Notes: generated by a model not told the origin, from the letters alone. A stretch of DNA of 64,000 bases from Gloeocapsopsis sp. IPPAS B-1203 (GCF_002749975.1 NZ_PEIG01000018.1:1-64000); one strand, 5' to 3'. Positions 56,357 to 59,725 are shown, counted from the first letter of the stretch. Numbers and translations are program-made.

Positions 56357-56410
56357 TTACCCATTACCCATTACCCATTACCCATTACCCATTACCCATT
56401 ACCCATTACC
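56357..56410. repeat. Heptameric tandem repeat (TTACCCA x about 7.7)
   Basis: Nearly eight perfect copies of TTACCCA lie between murE and the next kinase gene. A partner block TTGGTCA-like (56310-56341) just before it is complementary in style. It is a classical STRR and a likely length-variable locus. Confidence 0.9.
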
Positions 56411-56435: not shown

Positions 56436-57842
56436 ATGGATTCGCTTTATAAGTCTATCCTTAATTTACAGCAACCTCCACAACTTTTGGCTGTTAGTCC
56501 GGCTACCTTACTTTCACTGGTGAGGGCTGTTATTGATGCTTTAATTGACAATCAAATTTCAGCAACCCTGTGGCTTAAGCTACCGCCAGGAGAAATTTGG
56601 CAAGCAGAAATTCAGCGTTACTACAACCAAGTACAACTTCCACGGACAACTTACATTATTGTTCCTCAAGATCGCAGTAACTTAGATGCAGAGAAATATA
56701 AATTTCCTAGCATTCCGCTTCAACTGAAGTTTAATAACCAGTTGCGTCGTGAATATTTTCTTATGGTTACATCTCCAAGTTTTTGTAGCCTGATTTTTGC
56801 TTATCGACTAGGACCAAAACAACGGCAAAATAAAGCTAAAGAAAACACACTTGGTAAAGGTACTGCACCATTAACCTCAGCAACAATCCGCAAAAAACCT
56901 CCGTTGGTGGCACTTTATTCGTTTGAGGGACACATCGTTCAACCGATACTAAATAATCTCAAACTTGCCGGTGGAGATGAGGTACAAACAACAGTAGAAG
57001 TTGTACCAGCTATCCCTGAACCGTCATTTTTAAATCAAATCTTAACTAAACAAATTCATTACCAAGAACAAATCCGCAGTCGGACTAAATTTCGTCGCAA
57101 CCAGGCACTCAATAAAGCTGTTCGGACAAAAAAGCAAAGTAGTTTTTCTGTCAGAGATGACTTCTTAAGTGAATTATGTCAAGAACTCCGAACACCTCTA
57201 GCACATATGAAAATGGCACTCAGTTTACTAAATTCTCCACAACTTAAACCAGCACAAAAACAAAGGTATTTGCAAGTACTGAGTACAGAATGCGATCGCC
57301 AAAACTCGCTAATTAATGGTCTATTAGACTTAATTCAACTTGATCGCGCAGTGCAAACGCCATTAGAATCAGTGCGCTTGAGTGAGATTGTTCCTGGTGT
57401 TGTTAGTACATATCAACCGTTGGCAACTGAAAAAGGAATTATGCTGGCTTACACTGTACCAGAAGATTTACCGCCAGTTTCTTGTGTTAATGCTTGGTTG
57501 AAACAAATTGTGATTAACTTGTTGCACAATAGCATCAAGTTTACTCCTACTAATGGTCAAGTTTGGGTGCGATCGCGTCTCCAAAACGATTTTGTCCAAC
57601 TTGAATTTCGCGATACAGGTATTGGTATTGCACCCAGCGAAATTCCTAAGATATTCGATCGATTCTATCGCGTCCGTCCCGCTGCAGGCGAAGATGTGAG
57701 TGGTGCAGGGCTAGGTTTAACAATTGTGCAGCAACTTCTGTTACGCTGTGGTGGTTCTATCTCAGTCAAAAGTCGCTTAGGAGAAGGTTCAACCTTTAAT
57801 GTTCTTTTGCCTGTGGATAATTCTCAGAGTTCAGGGACTTAA
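56436..57842 (+). CDS. DICT-type sensor kinase lacking the phospho-accepting histidine
   Basis: 468 residues. The sensor domain (about 15-200) is DICT-like (REYFLMVTSPSFCSLIFAYR, PLVALYSFEGHIVQ). The dimerisation region reads ELCQELRTPLAHMK: Gln249 stands where histidine kinases have the phosphorylated His. The ATPase domain is complete: N-box NLLHNSIKFT (Asn365), DTGIGIAP (393-400) and GAGLGLTI (423-430). There is no membrane helix, so it is cytoplasmic. It can bind ATP but cannot autophosphorylate at the usual site. The next-but-one gene product shares the sensor domain and has the opposite defect. Confidence 0.88.
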   Translation: MDSLYKSILNLQQPPQLLAVSPATLLSLVRAVIDALIDNQISATLWLKLPPGEIWQAEIQRYYNQVQLPRTTYIIVPQDRSNLDAEKYKFPSIPLQLKFNNQLRREYFLMVTSPSFCSLIFAYRLGPKQRQNKAKENTLGKGTAPLTSATIRKKPPLVALYSFEGHIVQPILNNLKLAGGDEVQTTVEVVPAIPEPSFLNQILTKQIHYQEQIRSRTKFRRNQALNKAVRTKKQSSFSVRDDFLSELCQELRTPLAHMKMALSLLNSPQLKPAQKQRYLQVLSTECDRQNSLINGLLDLIQLDRAVQTPLESVRLSEIVPGVVSTYQPLATEKGIMLAYTVPEDLPPVSCVNAWLKQIVINLLHNSIKFTPTNGQVWVRSRLQNDFVQLEFRDTGIGIAPSEIPKIFDRFYRVRPAAGEDVSGAGLGLTIVQQLLLRCGGSISVKSRLGEGSTFNVLLPVDNSQSSGT

Positions 57843-57891
57843 ACAAGAGGAGTTGTGAGTTCTTATTGTTGAGTTCTGAATTACGAGAATT

Positions 57892-57946
57892 CAACTCAAA
57901 ACGTGCTAACGCACCGCTACGCTAACAAAATTCAAAATTCAAAACT
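57892..57946 (+). repeat. 55-nt dispersed repeat, copy 2
   Basis: 52 of 55 bases match the reverse complement of 53303-53357. It sits just after the DICT kinase gene and before the end of the converging ArsR gene, so it may serve as spacer or terminator. Confidence 0.8.
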
Positions 57947-57955
57947 ACCACTCTT

Positions 57956-58216
57956 TCACTTCCCTTGCAATGCTTCACCGTCTAGCTGATACAAGTGGGT
58001 ATTTCCTTCAGGATGCATCTTTACCAAATTCAATTCTTTAAGTTTATTGAGATGATGCGATACCGTTGGTTCTTTTAATTGCAATAGTGTTGCTAATTCT
58101 TCAACACTGCATTCCCGACTCGCTAAAATTCCCAGCATCTTCAATCGACTTTCATTAGCTAACACTTTAAAGAAGCGTAGCAGCGATTGCATCGCGTCCT
58201 GTTCCATACCTTTCAC
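57956..58216 (-). CDS. ArsR-type winged-helix regulator, short
   Basis: 86 residues (GTG start; ATG 58207 is an alternative). A complete ArsR wing is visible: LLRFFKVLANESRLKMLGIL, CSVEELATLLQLKEPTVSHH, LNKLKELNLVKMHPEGNTHL. No metal-binding cysteine pair is present. Many cyanobacterial relatives continue into a DUF2087 domain after this point; here the frame ends ALQGK, so it is truncated or a minimal form. Together with the downstream kinase it is read on the minus strand. Confidence 0.8.
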   Translation of the reverse strand: MKGMEQDAMQSLLRFFKVLANESRLKMLGILASRECSVEELATLLQLKEPTVSHHLNKLKELNLVKMHPEGNTHLYQLDGEALQGK

Positions 58217-58252
58217 TAATTAGACCTGCATCTAATTAGAATTAGATCAATA

Positions 58253-59725
58253 CTAGCTACAGTATTCGGTTTGCTTGACATCTAACGGCAAGAAAATCGT
58301 CAAAACTTCGCCTTCGTGGGGACGTTGTCGGATGATAAGTTTACCGCCAATAGCTTGAAATAACTGTTTGGTAGCTGTCATGTTCAAACTAATATTGCCA
58401 GTTTCAGGTTGAAATGTGAGTAATTGACCAAGCGACTTACGAATTGGTGGTACGGTAGATTCTTCTCCTTTATTTTCTTCGAGTTGAGATTTTGGCAGTA
58501 ATTGCAACTTTAATTGATCTCCCGCTGGAATAACTTGTACTTGGATGTGACTGCCTGGTGGTAAGCTGCGAGTGAAGTTTTCAATTAACCCTGTCAAGAC
58601 TTGATCCAGCATTTTCGGATCGCTGACTACAGTTGGTAGCTGTTGCGGTAAAACAACATCCAAAGTTAAATTACGCCGGCTGGCTTGTTTTTGCCAACGC
58701 GGAACACTCTGCTGTAAGACCTGCGTTAATGACATTGCTGTTAAATAAGTACCTGAGTGCTTGGCAGTACATTTTTCTAGTTCTGCTGCACGGAATAAAA
58801 GCTCCATGCGGTCAATTTGTTCGGTACACTCATGGTCAATGATTTCCAATCGTTGAATTGCATCAGTTGCTAAATCGCGGCGCTTAAGTAGTAAGCGAGT
58901 CAATGTTCGGATTGTCGTTAAGGGTGTCCGTACCTCGTGCGCGAAGGCTTGAAGTAATTCCACATCTACGCGAGGTGTTGCGTGACTTAGTTCTAAATTA
59001 TTATTTTGTGTAGAATTACGAATTTCTTCGTGGGATTCTGGTATGTGCTGCAACAGCAAGCGGCTAAAGTGCATTACTGTTCGGTAATCTGGCACTACTG
59101 GATAATATTGCTGAATAAGTTCATCTAAATGCAATACCGATTCAGAAGTTGTGAGTGCAGCTCTTGCTCTCAAAGCGTACCATGCCTGTTCCACGACTTC
59201 TGGTTCAAAAGAAAATAAAAATACTGGTACACCATAAGCATTTTCTGCGAGAACCATTGCCAAGCTAAATTGTGCAGTTAAAACAAGACAGAACTGTTCT
59301 CGTGCCAGTGGATCTCCAGAAATCAACGGTAACAAAACTCCTGGTTCTCTAGCTACTTGTGATTTTTGTACTGCAGTACTTAAACTTGATGGCAGTAATT
59401 GATGCTGCCAGGAATCTGCCGTAAAAGTCCAAGAAGGTAATTTGTTAACGAGTTGAGGATTGCTAATAACTGGTACGGGACCTGCCAATATTACTCCTTG
59501 AGTAGATAACTGGCAATTCTCATCAACGGTATGTTTAAGGTAGATTTGTTGCAGTAAGTTCTCCAATGCGGCGATCGCAACTCGCCATTGCTGCGCTGTC
59601 ACATCTACTGCAGTGCTTCCTTCATGACTTGCAGACAATAAGCATGAATGACTACCATAGCCGTCGTGTTGTGTGTCATTACTGGCTAGTATCTCACTCA
59701 GTGTTGGTATTATCCATTTGCGCAC
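58253..59725 (-). CDS. Sensor kinase with intact H-box but degenerate ATPase domain
   Basis: 490 residues, GTG start. The N-terminal sensor is DICT-like, related to that of the kinase at 56436 (REQFCLVLTAQFSLAMVLAE, VPVFLFSFEPEVVEQAW). The H-box FAHEVRTPLTTIRT has His263. The C-terminal domain keeps an N-box-like LIENFTRSLPP (Asn383) but has no DxGxG, and GxGLGL is replaced by ETGNISLNMT, so ATP binding is probably lost. It could be phosphorylated in trans. Another reading is a pseudokinase that scaffolds a partner. Confidence 0.85.
   Translation of the reverse strand: MRKWIIPTLSEILASNDTQHDGYGSHSCLLSASHEGSTAVDVTAQQWRVAIAALENLLQQIYLKHTVDENCQLSTQGVILAGPVPVISNPQLVNKLPSWTFTADSWQHQLLPSSLSTAVQKSQVAREPGVLLPLISGDPLAREQFCLVLTAQFSLAMVLAENAYGVPVFLFSFEPEVVEQAWYALRARAALTTSESVLHLDELIQQYYPVVPDYRTVMHFSRLLLQHIPESHEEIRNSTQNNNLELSHATPRVDVELLQAFAHEVRTPLTTIRTLTRLLLKRRDLATDAIQRLEIIDHECTEQIDRMELLFRAAELEKCTAKHSGTYLTAMSLTQVLQQSVPRWQKQASRRNLTLDVVLPQQLPTVVSDPKMLDQVLTGLIENFTRSLPPGSHIQVQVIPAGDQLKLQLLPKSQLEENKGEESTVPPIRKSLGQLLTFQPETGNISLNMTATKQLFQAIGGKLIIRQRPHEGEVLTIFLPLDVKQTEYCS

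Follow-up and report, generated by a model that had tools for sequence, protein, structure and literature searches.

Complementary and conserved motif losses in two HisKA-type kinases of Gloeocapsopsis, with a possible role in the cyanobacterial Hik2-Rre1 pathway

Two histidine kinase-like proteins encoded at positions 56,436-59,725 of a 64,000-nt stretch of Gloeocapsopsis sp. IPPAS B-1203 DNA (hereafter the window) were found to carry complementary defects that are real, old and conserved. The plus-strand protein, referred to here as the Q-kinase, carries Gln where the phospho-acceptor His would be expected and keeps a full ATPase domain. The minus-strand protein, referred to as the H-partner, keeps the His and has lost the ATP-binding motifs. 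The conserved losses, the linkage of the two genes, an operon joining the H-partner with Hik2- and Rre1-type genes, and a Hik2-like helix in the dimerization and histidine phosphotransfer (DHp) domain of the H-partner are the main support for our interpretation. From these observations we infer complex formation, phosphorylation in trans and Rre1 as the target. Membership of the H-partner in the Hik2-Rre1 pathway is probable. The full model, a heteromeric unit in which the Q-kinase phosphorylates His263 of the H-partner in trans with Rre1 as output, is held tentatively, at slightly below an even chance.

All three Pfam domains of the window Q-kinase (DICT, HisKA and HATPase_c) scored above their cut-offs. 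Gln249 takes the place of the H-box His, and the ATPase domain is complete, with an intact N box and intact G1 (DTGIGI) and G2 (GAGLGL) boxes in the alignment. The H-box of the H-partner, AHEVRTPL, includes His263, and its HisKA domain exceeded the Pfam cut-off, while its HATPase_c match remained below (17.5 vs 26.4 bits). Neither DxGxG nor GxGLG was found in this protein. The preliminary description of the region had claimed both sets of features, and the three open reading frames (ORFs) lay at the coordinates it gave.

Conservation was examined in two sets of distinct sequences, 96 for the Q-kinase and 173 for the H-partner, which came from the genome sample together with 80 named loci. At position 249 of the Q-kinase, Gln was present in 88 of 96 sequences, with Arg in 4, Glu in 2 and His in 2. 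The Gln codons were split equally between CAA (44) and CAG (44), so the residue was held while the codon drifted. The ATP site hardly varied (N365, D393 and G395 in 96/96, G425 in 95/96), and the residues following the acceptor position were largely kept (Glu at +1 in 93/96, Thr at +4 in 74/96). In the H-partner, the acceptor His was invariant (173/173; codons CAC 89, CAT 84), as was the Thr at +4 (173/173), and the Glu at +1 was present in 171/173. DxGxG and GxGLG were both found in 0/173. Where the ATP motifs would be, the family carries its own conserved block, LGQLL.FQPETG.LSLNL..TK.LFQALGGKL.VRQR. Asn383 of the window H-partner aligned with the N-box Asn, a position occupied by Arg or other residues in about half of the family. 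Because both the Gln and the His are under long-term conservation, the defects are not due to chance. The expectation that orthologues would keep Gln in one protein and His in the other was thus borne out, and orthologues keeping both motifs, which the preliminary description had named as contrary evidence, were not seen apart from the two Q-kinases with His.

Those two Q-kinase orthologues were found in L057 (genome G025) and L140 (a Nostoc metagenome-assembled genome). As CAA and CAG are one base change from CAC and CAT, Gln-to-His reversion may occur in nature. The divergent Q-kinases with Arg at the acceptor position (L084, L087, L089 and L090) all came from family f4.

Despite the lost motifs, the H-partner seems to retain the architecture of a histidine kinase. 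HisKA was matched by Pfam in 48/48 members, and neither protein contained an Hpt or CheW domain in Pfam, both being built of HisKA plus HATPase_c. The AlphaFold2 model of the H-partner comprised a mixed N-terminal domain, DHp helices at residues 251-318 and a domain resembling the catalytic and ATP-binding (CA) domain, with a mean predicted local distance difference test (pLDDT) score of 79.9. The kinase-like CA fold was kept in the model although all G1 and G2 motifs were lost. The layout of the Q-kinase model was the same overall (mean pLDDT 77.1). A shared DICT-like sensor domain had been proposed for both proteins; Pfam detected it in the Q-kinase only, the window H-partner having no DICT match, and any DICT-like part of the H-partner is remote. 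Among its orthologues 3/48 were matched, with a best E-value of 0.022. The N-terminal profiles of the two proteins nevertheless aligned over about 105 columns (probability 96%, E 1.5e-9; 0.5% for the reversed control); these regions are remotely related. In the kinase-domain tree the Q-kinases and the H-partners each formed one clade with 100/100 support. A recent duplication of one gene from the other was unsupported, as the clades were separate and the H-partner lay on a long branch.

The operon context pointed to a pathway for the H-partner. In genomes G004, G057, G114 and G013, representing three families, the H-partner gene is the first of a tight operon, followed by a short kinase and a NarL/LuxR-type response regulator. 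The short kinase lacks a sensor domain but retains an acceptor His and the full set of ATP motifs. Its best matches elsewhere were kinases of 385-460 aa, several with a detectable GAF domain, whose H-boxes have the form LLHQLRNPLTALRTF.KLL.KR. In most operons the H-box of the short kinase is LHQLRN, and the primer published for mutagenesis of His185 in Hik2 encodes DLL(H/Q)QLRN (PMC4751278); the operon kinase was therefore assigned to the Hik2/CSK type. It also grouped with a Hik2-type kinase at 98/97 support in the tree. The regulator contains Response_reg and GerE domains, and its orthologue was the top full-length match in 18/20 genomes tested, being weak only in the Gloeobacter-like family. 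Rre1/Ycf29 has been described as conserved throughout the cyanobacteria (PMC9321951), with which this wide distribution agrees. A primer published for the Rre1 receiver has ELEAIV at its end, as have close variants here. Thus, the operon can be read as H-partner, Hik2 core and Rre1, although the equation with the named proteins is by inference.

Which regulator is bound depends in part on the segment of DHp helix 1 that lies below the His (general two-component knowledge; PMC3433190). This segment was scored against H-partners in about 159 kinase windows from outside the family, some of them spurious pattern matches. The 31 windows nearest to the H-partner helix were all of Hik2 type, a number biased by the purposeful gathering of Hik2 loci. 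No other kinase type came near these scores; the Q-kinase windows ranked next, with about half the score. An RT...KR pattern is common to the Hik2 and H-partner helices, and the Q-kinase does not have it.

The distribution of the two genes was examined in 291 genomes of the class. Nearly all of them had the H-partner, even Prochlorococcus-sized genomes of 1.7 Mb, and it was not found in family f39 (Gloeobacter-like, the lineage being a guess) nor in most of family f27. The Q-kinase was present in about 40-45% of genomes; 139 passed the threshold applied, but the weakest of these hits are to other kinases. When a test set of genomes without a Q-kinase match was searched with a profile, only generic kinases were returned. 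The H-partner was still degenerate in genomes without a Q-kinase. Among 116 genomes with coordinates for both genes, the two were on one contig in 44, within 26 kb in 27 and within 5 kb in 18, where random placement would give about 0.3. Linkage is therefore far above chance. The close cases came from nine families and were mostly convergent; at the 80 named H-partner loci, a Q-kinase lay within 6 kb in 34, and 33 of these 34 were convergent.

Taken together, these results suggest the following mechanism. The H-partner would be a former histidine kinase, its ATPase domain dead and its dimerization helices and acceptor His kept, acting almost throughout cyanobacteria as a phospho-acceptor of the Hik2-Rre1 pathway in the manner of Spo0B, ChpT or PhyT. 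There is precedent for this, as kinase-derived proteins with a dead ATPase domain can be phosphotransferases (PMC5898713, PMC3433190). The Q-kinase would be an optional addition, predicted to bind ATP and to be unable to phosphorylate itself; in Hik2, the His185Gln substitution abolished labelling (PMC4751278). The Q-kinase may dock onto the H-partner through their related DHp helices, and on sensing its signal with the DICT domain it would most likely pass phosphate from ATP to His263 in trans. Both halves of a split kinase were found, an acceptor without ATPase motifs in the H-partner and ATPase motifs without an acceptor in the Q-kinase, and split kinases do work in trans, as in CheA3/CheA4 (PMC3591291). 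Trans-phosphorylation of the H-partner by the Q-kinase is plausible. Once phosphorylated, the H-partner might act alongside Hik2 as a second phosphate donor to Rre1. Rre1 is a likely output of the pair because in some lineages the H-partner gene is in an operon with a kinase of Hik2 type and a regulator of Rre1 type.

Several observations weigh against this model. The Q-kinase was absent from more than half of the genomes with an H-partner, so the H-partner is independent of it; since the H-partner is nearly universal, co-occurrence has little weight and was dropped as evidence. The two genes were unlinked in most genomes, and their usual convergent order means that they are not co-transcribed. 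Helix 1 of the Q-kinase resembles that of the H-partner less than the Hik2 helix does, and its Gln is not absolute, given the eight sequences with His, Arg or Glu. Hik2 is also reported to phosphorylate Rre1 directly (PMC4751278), which leaves no gap in the phosphotransfer chain in vitro. A link between the H-partner and Hik2 by joint absence was considered and weakened, as a Hik2-type kinase was present in f27 genomes without the H-partner. An obligate pair was rejected, with the H-partner found almost phylum-wide and without a Q-kinase in over half of genomes. Of the two genes, only the H-partner was seen without its partner, an occurrence that the preliminary description regarded as fatal to the pair.

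The retained +1 Glu and +4 Thr of the Q-kinase also allow a different role. These residues are used for dephosphorylation in HisKA kinases, and the acceptor His is dispensable for phosphatase activity in some of them, as in EnvZ mutants. The Q-kinase, with no His to donate, could then be a dedicated phosphatase of phosphorylated Rre1 regulated by its ATP/ADP-binding domain, with the H-partner as a phosphotransfer or sequestering arm. We consider this unlikely, since the +4 Thr is less conserved than in the H-partner and is missing in divergent Q-kinases, and since helix 1 without the RT...KR pattern may not fit the same regulator. About as unlikely is a PhyT-like bifunctional role for the H-partner, in which it restrains Rre1 and receives its phosphate from Hik2 or, by reverse transfer, from regulators, while the Q-kinase acts elsewhere and the linkage is an inherited neighbourhood. 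The frequent, still degenerate H-partners without a Q-kinase, the operon with Hik2- and Rre1-type genes, and the precedent of PhyT itself, which combines an intact DHp motif with a degenerate ATPase in a stress pathway (PMC5898713), would all be accounted for. However, close linkage in nine families and the related N-terminal regions are hard to explain by neighbourhood alone across such evolutionary depth.

Structural comparison raised the further idea of an allosteric pseudokinase pair, as in RetS-GacS or DivL-CckA, in which one or both proteins heterodimerize with Hik2 and tune it without phosphate on His263. The H-partner model matched two atypical kinases best, RetS in its kinase region (Z 16.9) and then DivL (Z 16.4), with ordinary kinases within 1 Z unit below them. 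The essentially invariant His263, Glu at +1 and Thr at +4 would be unneeded for a purely structural role, making this explanation improbable. ChpT and Spo0B were not among the 50 structural matches listed, which carries no weight either way, and the phosphotransferase family PF10090 (HPTransfase) was matched in 1/48 H-partner members, at E 0.062 only. Finally, each protein misses one essential kinase feature, as might be expected of degenerate remnants without a joint function. This is highly improbable given how strictly both are conserved across the phylum while their codons change synonymously, and given that the dead domain has conserved new motifs of its own.

The features of the region are listed in Table 1. 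An ArsR gene between the two kinase genes had been suggested as a possible output. It was rejected as a component of the system, because it occurs near the pair in this genus only (G000, G037 and L125).

Table 1. Features of the two-kinase region (window coordinates)
Feature	Position	Strand	Basis
Q-kinase, DICT - HisKA (Gln for His) - intact HATPase_c, 468 aa	56436..57842	+	ORF, Pfam
DICT sensory domain of Q-kinase	56442..56807	+	Pfam PF10069, E 2e-31, 109 bits vs cut-off 23.8
DHp (HisKA) domain of Q-kinase, H-box CQELRTPL	57153..57344	+	Pfam PF00512, E 1.7e-11, alignment
Gln249, codon CAA, at phospho-acceptor position of Q-kinase	57180..57182	+	alignment
Intact ATP-binding (CA) domain of Q-kinase, N/G1/G2 boxes	57492..57818	+	Pfam PF02518, E 2.5e-26
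ArsR/SmtB-type regulator between both genes, 86 aa	57956..58216	-	judged outside the system
H-partner, DICT-like region - HisKA with His263 - degenerate CA domain, 490 aa	58253..59725	-	ORF, Pfam, AlphaFold2 model
DICT-like N-terminal region of H-partner, residues 123-227	59045..59359	-	profile-profile comparison; sub-threshold in Pfam
DHp helices of H-partner, residues 251-318; helix 1 TTIRTLTRLLLKR Hik2-like	58772..58975	-	AlphaFold2 model, helix comparison
His263, codon CAC, invariant phospho-acceptor candidate of H-partner	58937..58939	-	alignment
Degenerate CA domain of H-partner; conserved block instead of G1/G2 boxes	58274..58750	-	motif counts, model fold

The window H-partner is 97% identical to that of Gloeocapsopsis crepidinum, a near relative. 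Directly upstream of the Q-kinase gene, at window positions 56357-56410, is a perfect 7-bp tandem repeat, TTACCCA, of 7.7 copies. Judging from translations, the same genome also encodes two ordinary DICT-GAF-HisKA-HATPase kinases with a canonical His (L002 and L003, on contigs C1 and C24). A full-length Hik2-type kinase, an H-partner and a Q-kinase lie within about 9 kb in Calothrix brevissima NIES-22 (L146:19-1350); as one case in 80, this is not significant alone. In three picocyanobacteria-sized genomes (L265:7713-9080, L266:8001-9413 and L267:7820-9169) the H-partner gene is flanked by the photosystem I gene psaD on one side and by a rodA/ftsW gene on the other, the neighbour domains having been checked in L265 only. 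The Hik2-type kinase of f27, a family mostly without the H-partner, was detected in L364-L369. If f27 corresponds to Thermostichus, which is a guess, this is at odds with the report of no Hik2 in that genus (PMC9953108).

Rre1 and Hik2 (plastid Ycf29 and CSK) control chaperone and redox responses. According to a review, the direction of the redox control of Hik2 is unsettled, and reconstituted systems may lack modulators that take part in it (PMC13421787). As a near-universal dead-ATPase kinase whose gene in some lineages lies in one operon with genes of Hik2 and Rre1 type, the H-partner is an obvious candidate for such a modulator. If the model is correct, the Q-kinase and H-partner would be a natural HisKA-type split kinase, where the biochemically characterized examples found were of CheA type, and the main cyanobacterial switch for heat and redox stress would gain a second, independent ATP-driven input. 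The broadest claim, that a near-universal dead-ATPase acceptor of Hik2-Rre1 (CSK-Ycf29) is trans-phosphorylated by an acceptor-less Gln kinase, giving such a split kinase and second input in nearly half of the phylum, is a possibility that we regard as doubtful.

Among known systems, CheA3/CheA4 of Rhodobacter sphaeroides (PMC3591291) is alike in combining an acceptor without ATPase and an ATPase without acceptor, neither of which autophosphorylates alone. It differs in belonging to the CheA family, with separate P1, P3 and P4 domains and a chemotaxis output, whereas the Q-kinase and H-partner are HisKA-type proteins with DHp and CA folds, and the H-partner occurs nearly phylum-wide without the Q-kinase. 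Hik36-Hik43 of Synechocystis (PMC7656254), the one cyanobacterial split kinase found in our literature search, is backed by two-hybrid data; it is of the CheA/Hpt type, lies in the pil/tax3 cluster with Rre6 and has another domain architecture. PhyT, ChpT and Spo0B (PMC5898713, PMC3433190) share with the H-partner a kinase-derived DHp domain, a retained His and a degenerate Bergerat domain, and PhyT controls a general stress response. Their phosphate comes from a receiver domain, a kind of donor not known for the H-partner, and none has been described with a conserved acceptor-less kinase as neighbour. Hik2 (CSK)-Rre1 (Ycf29) corresponds to the H-partner's operon partners in type and to its DHp helix 1 in sequence, but a third, dead-ATPase component encoded alongside is unmentioned in three reports on this pathway (PMC4751278, PMC9321951, PMC13421787). 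A 2026 review names Hik34 and DnaK2 as modulators of Hik2-Rre1 (PMC13421787). Since Hik34 is soluble and acts with Rre1 (PMC3264485), the H-partner may be Hik34 (slr1285 of Synechocystis), whose loss raises heat-shock transcripts, as that of a PhyT-like brake would. Recombinant Hik34 was reported to autophosphorylate (PMC3264485), unlike what is expected of the H-partner; if the two are the same, the protein is already known, but its lost ATP motifs and operon context would contradict or qualify that activity.

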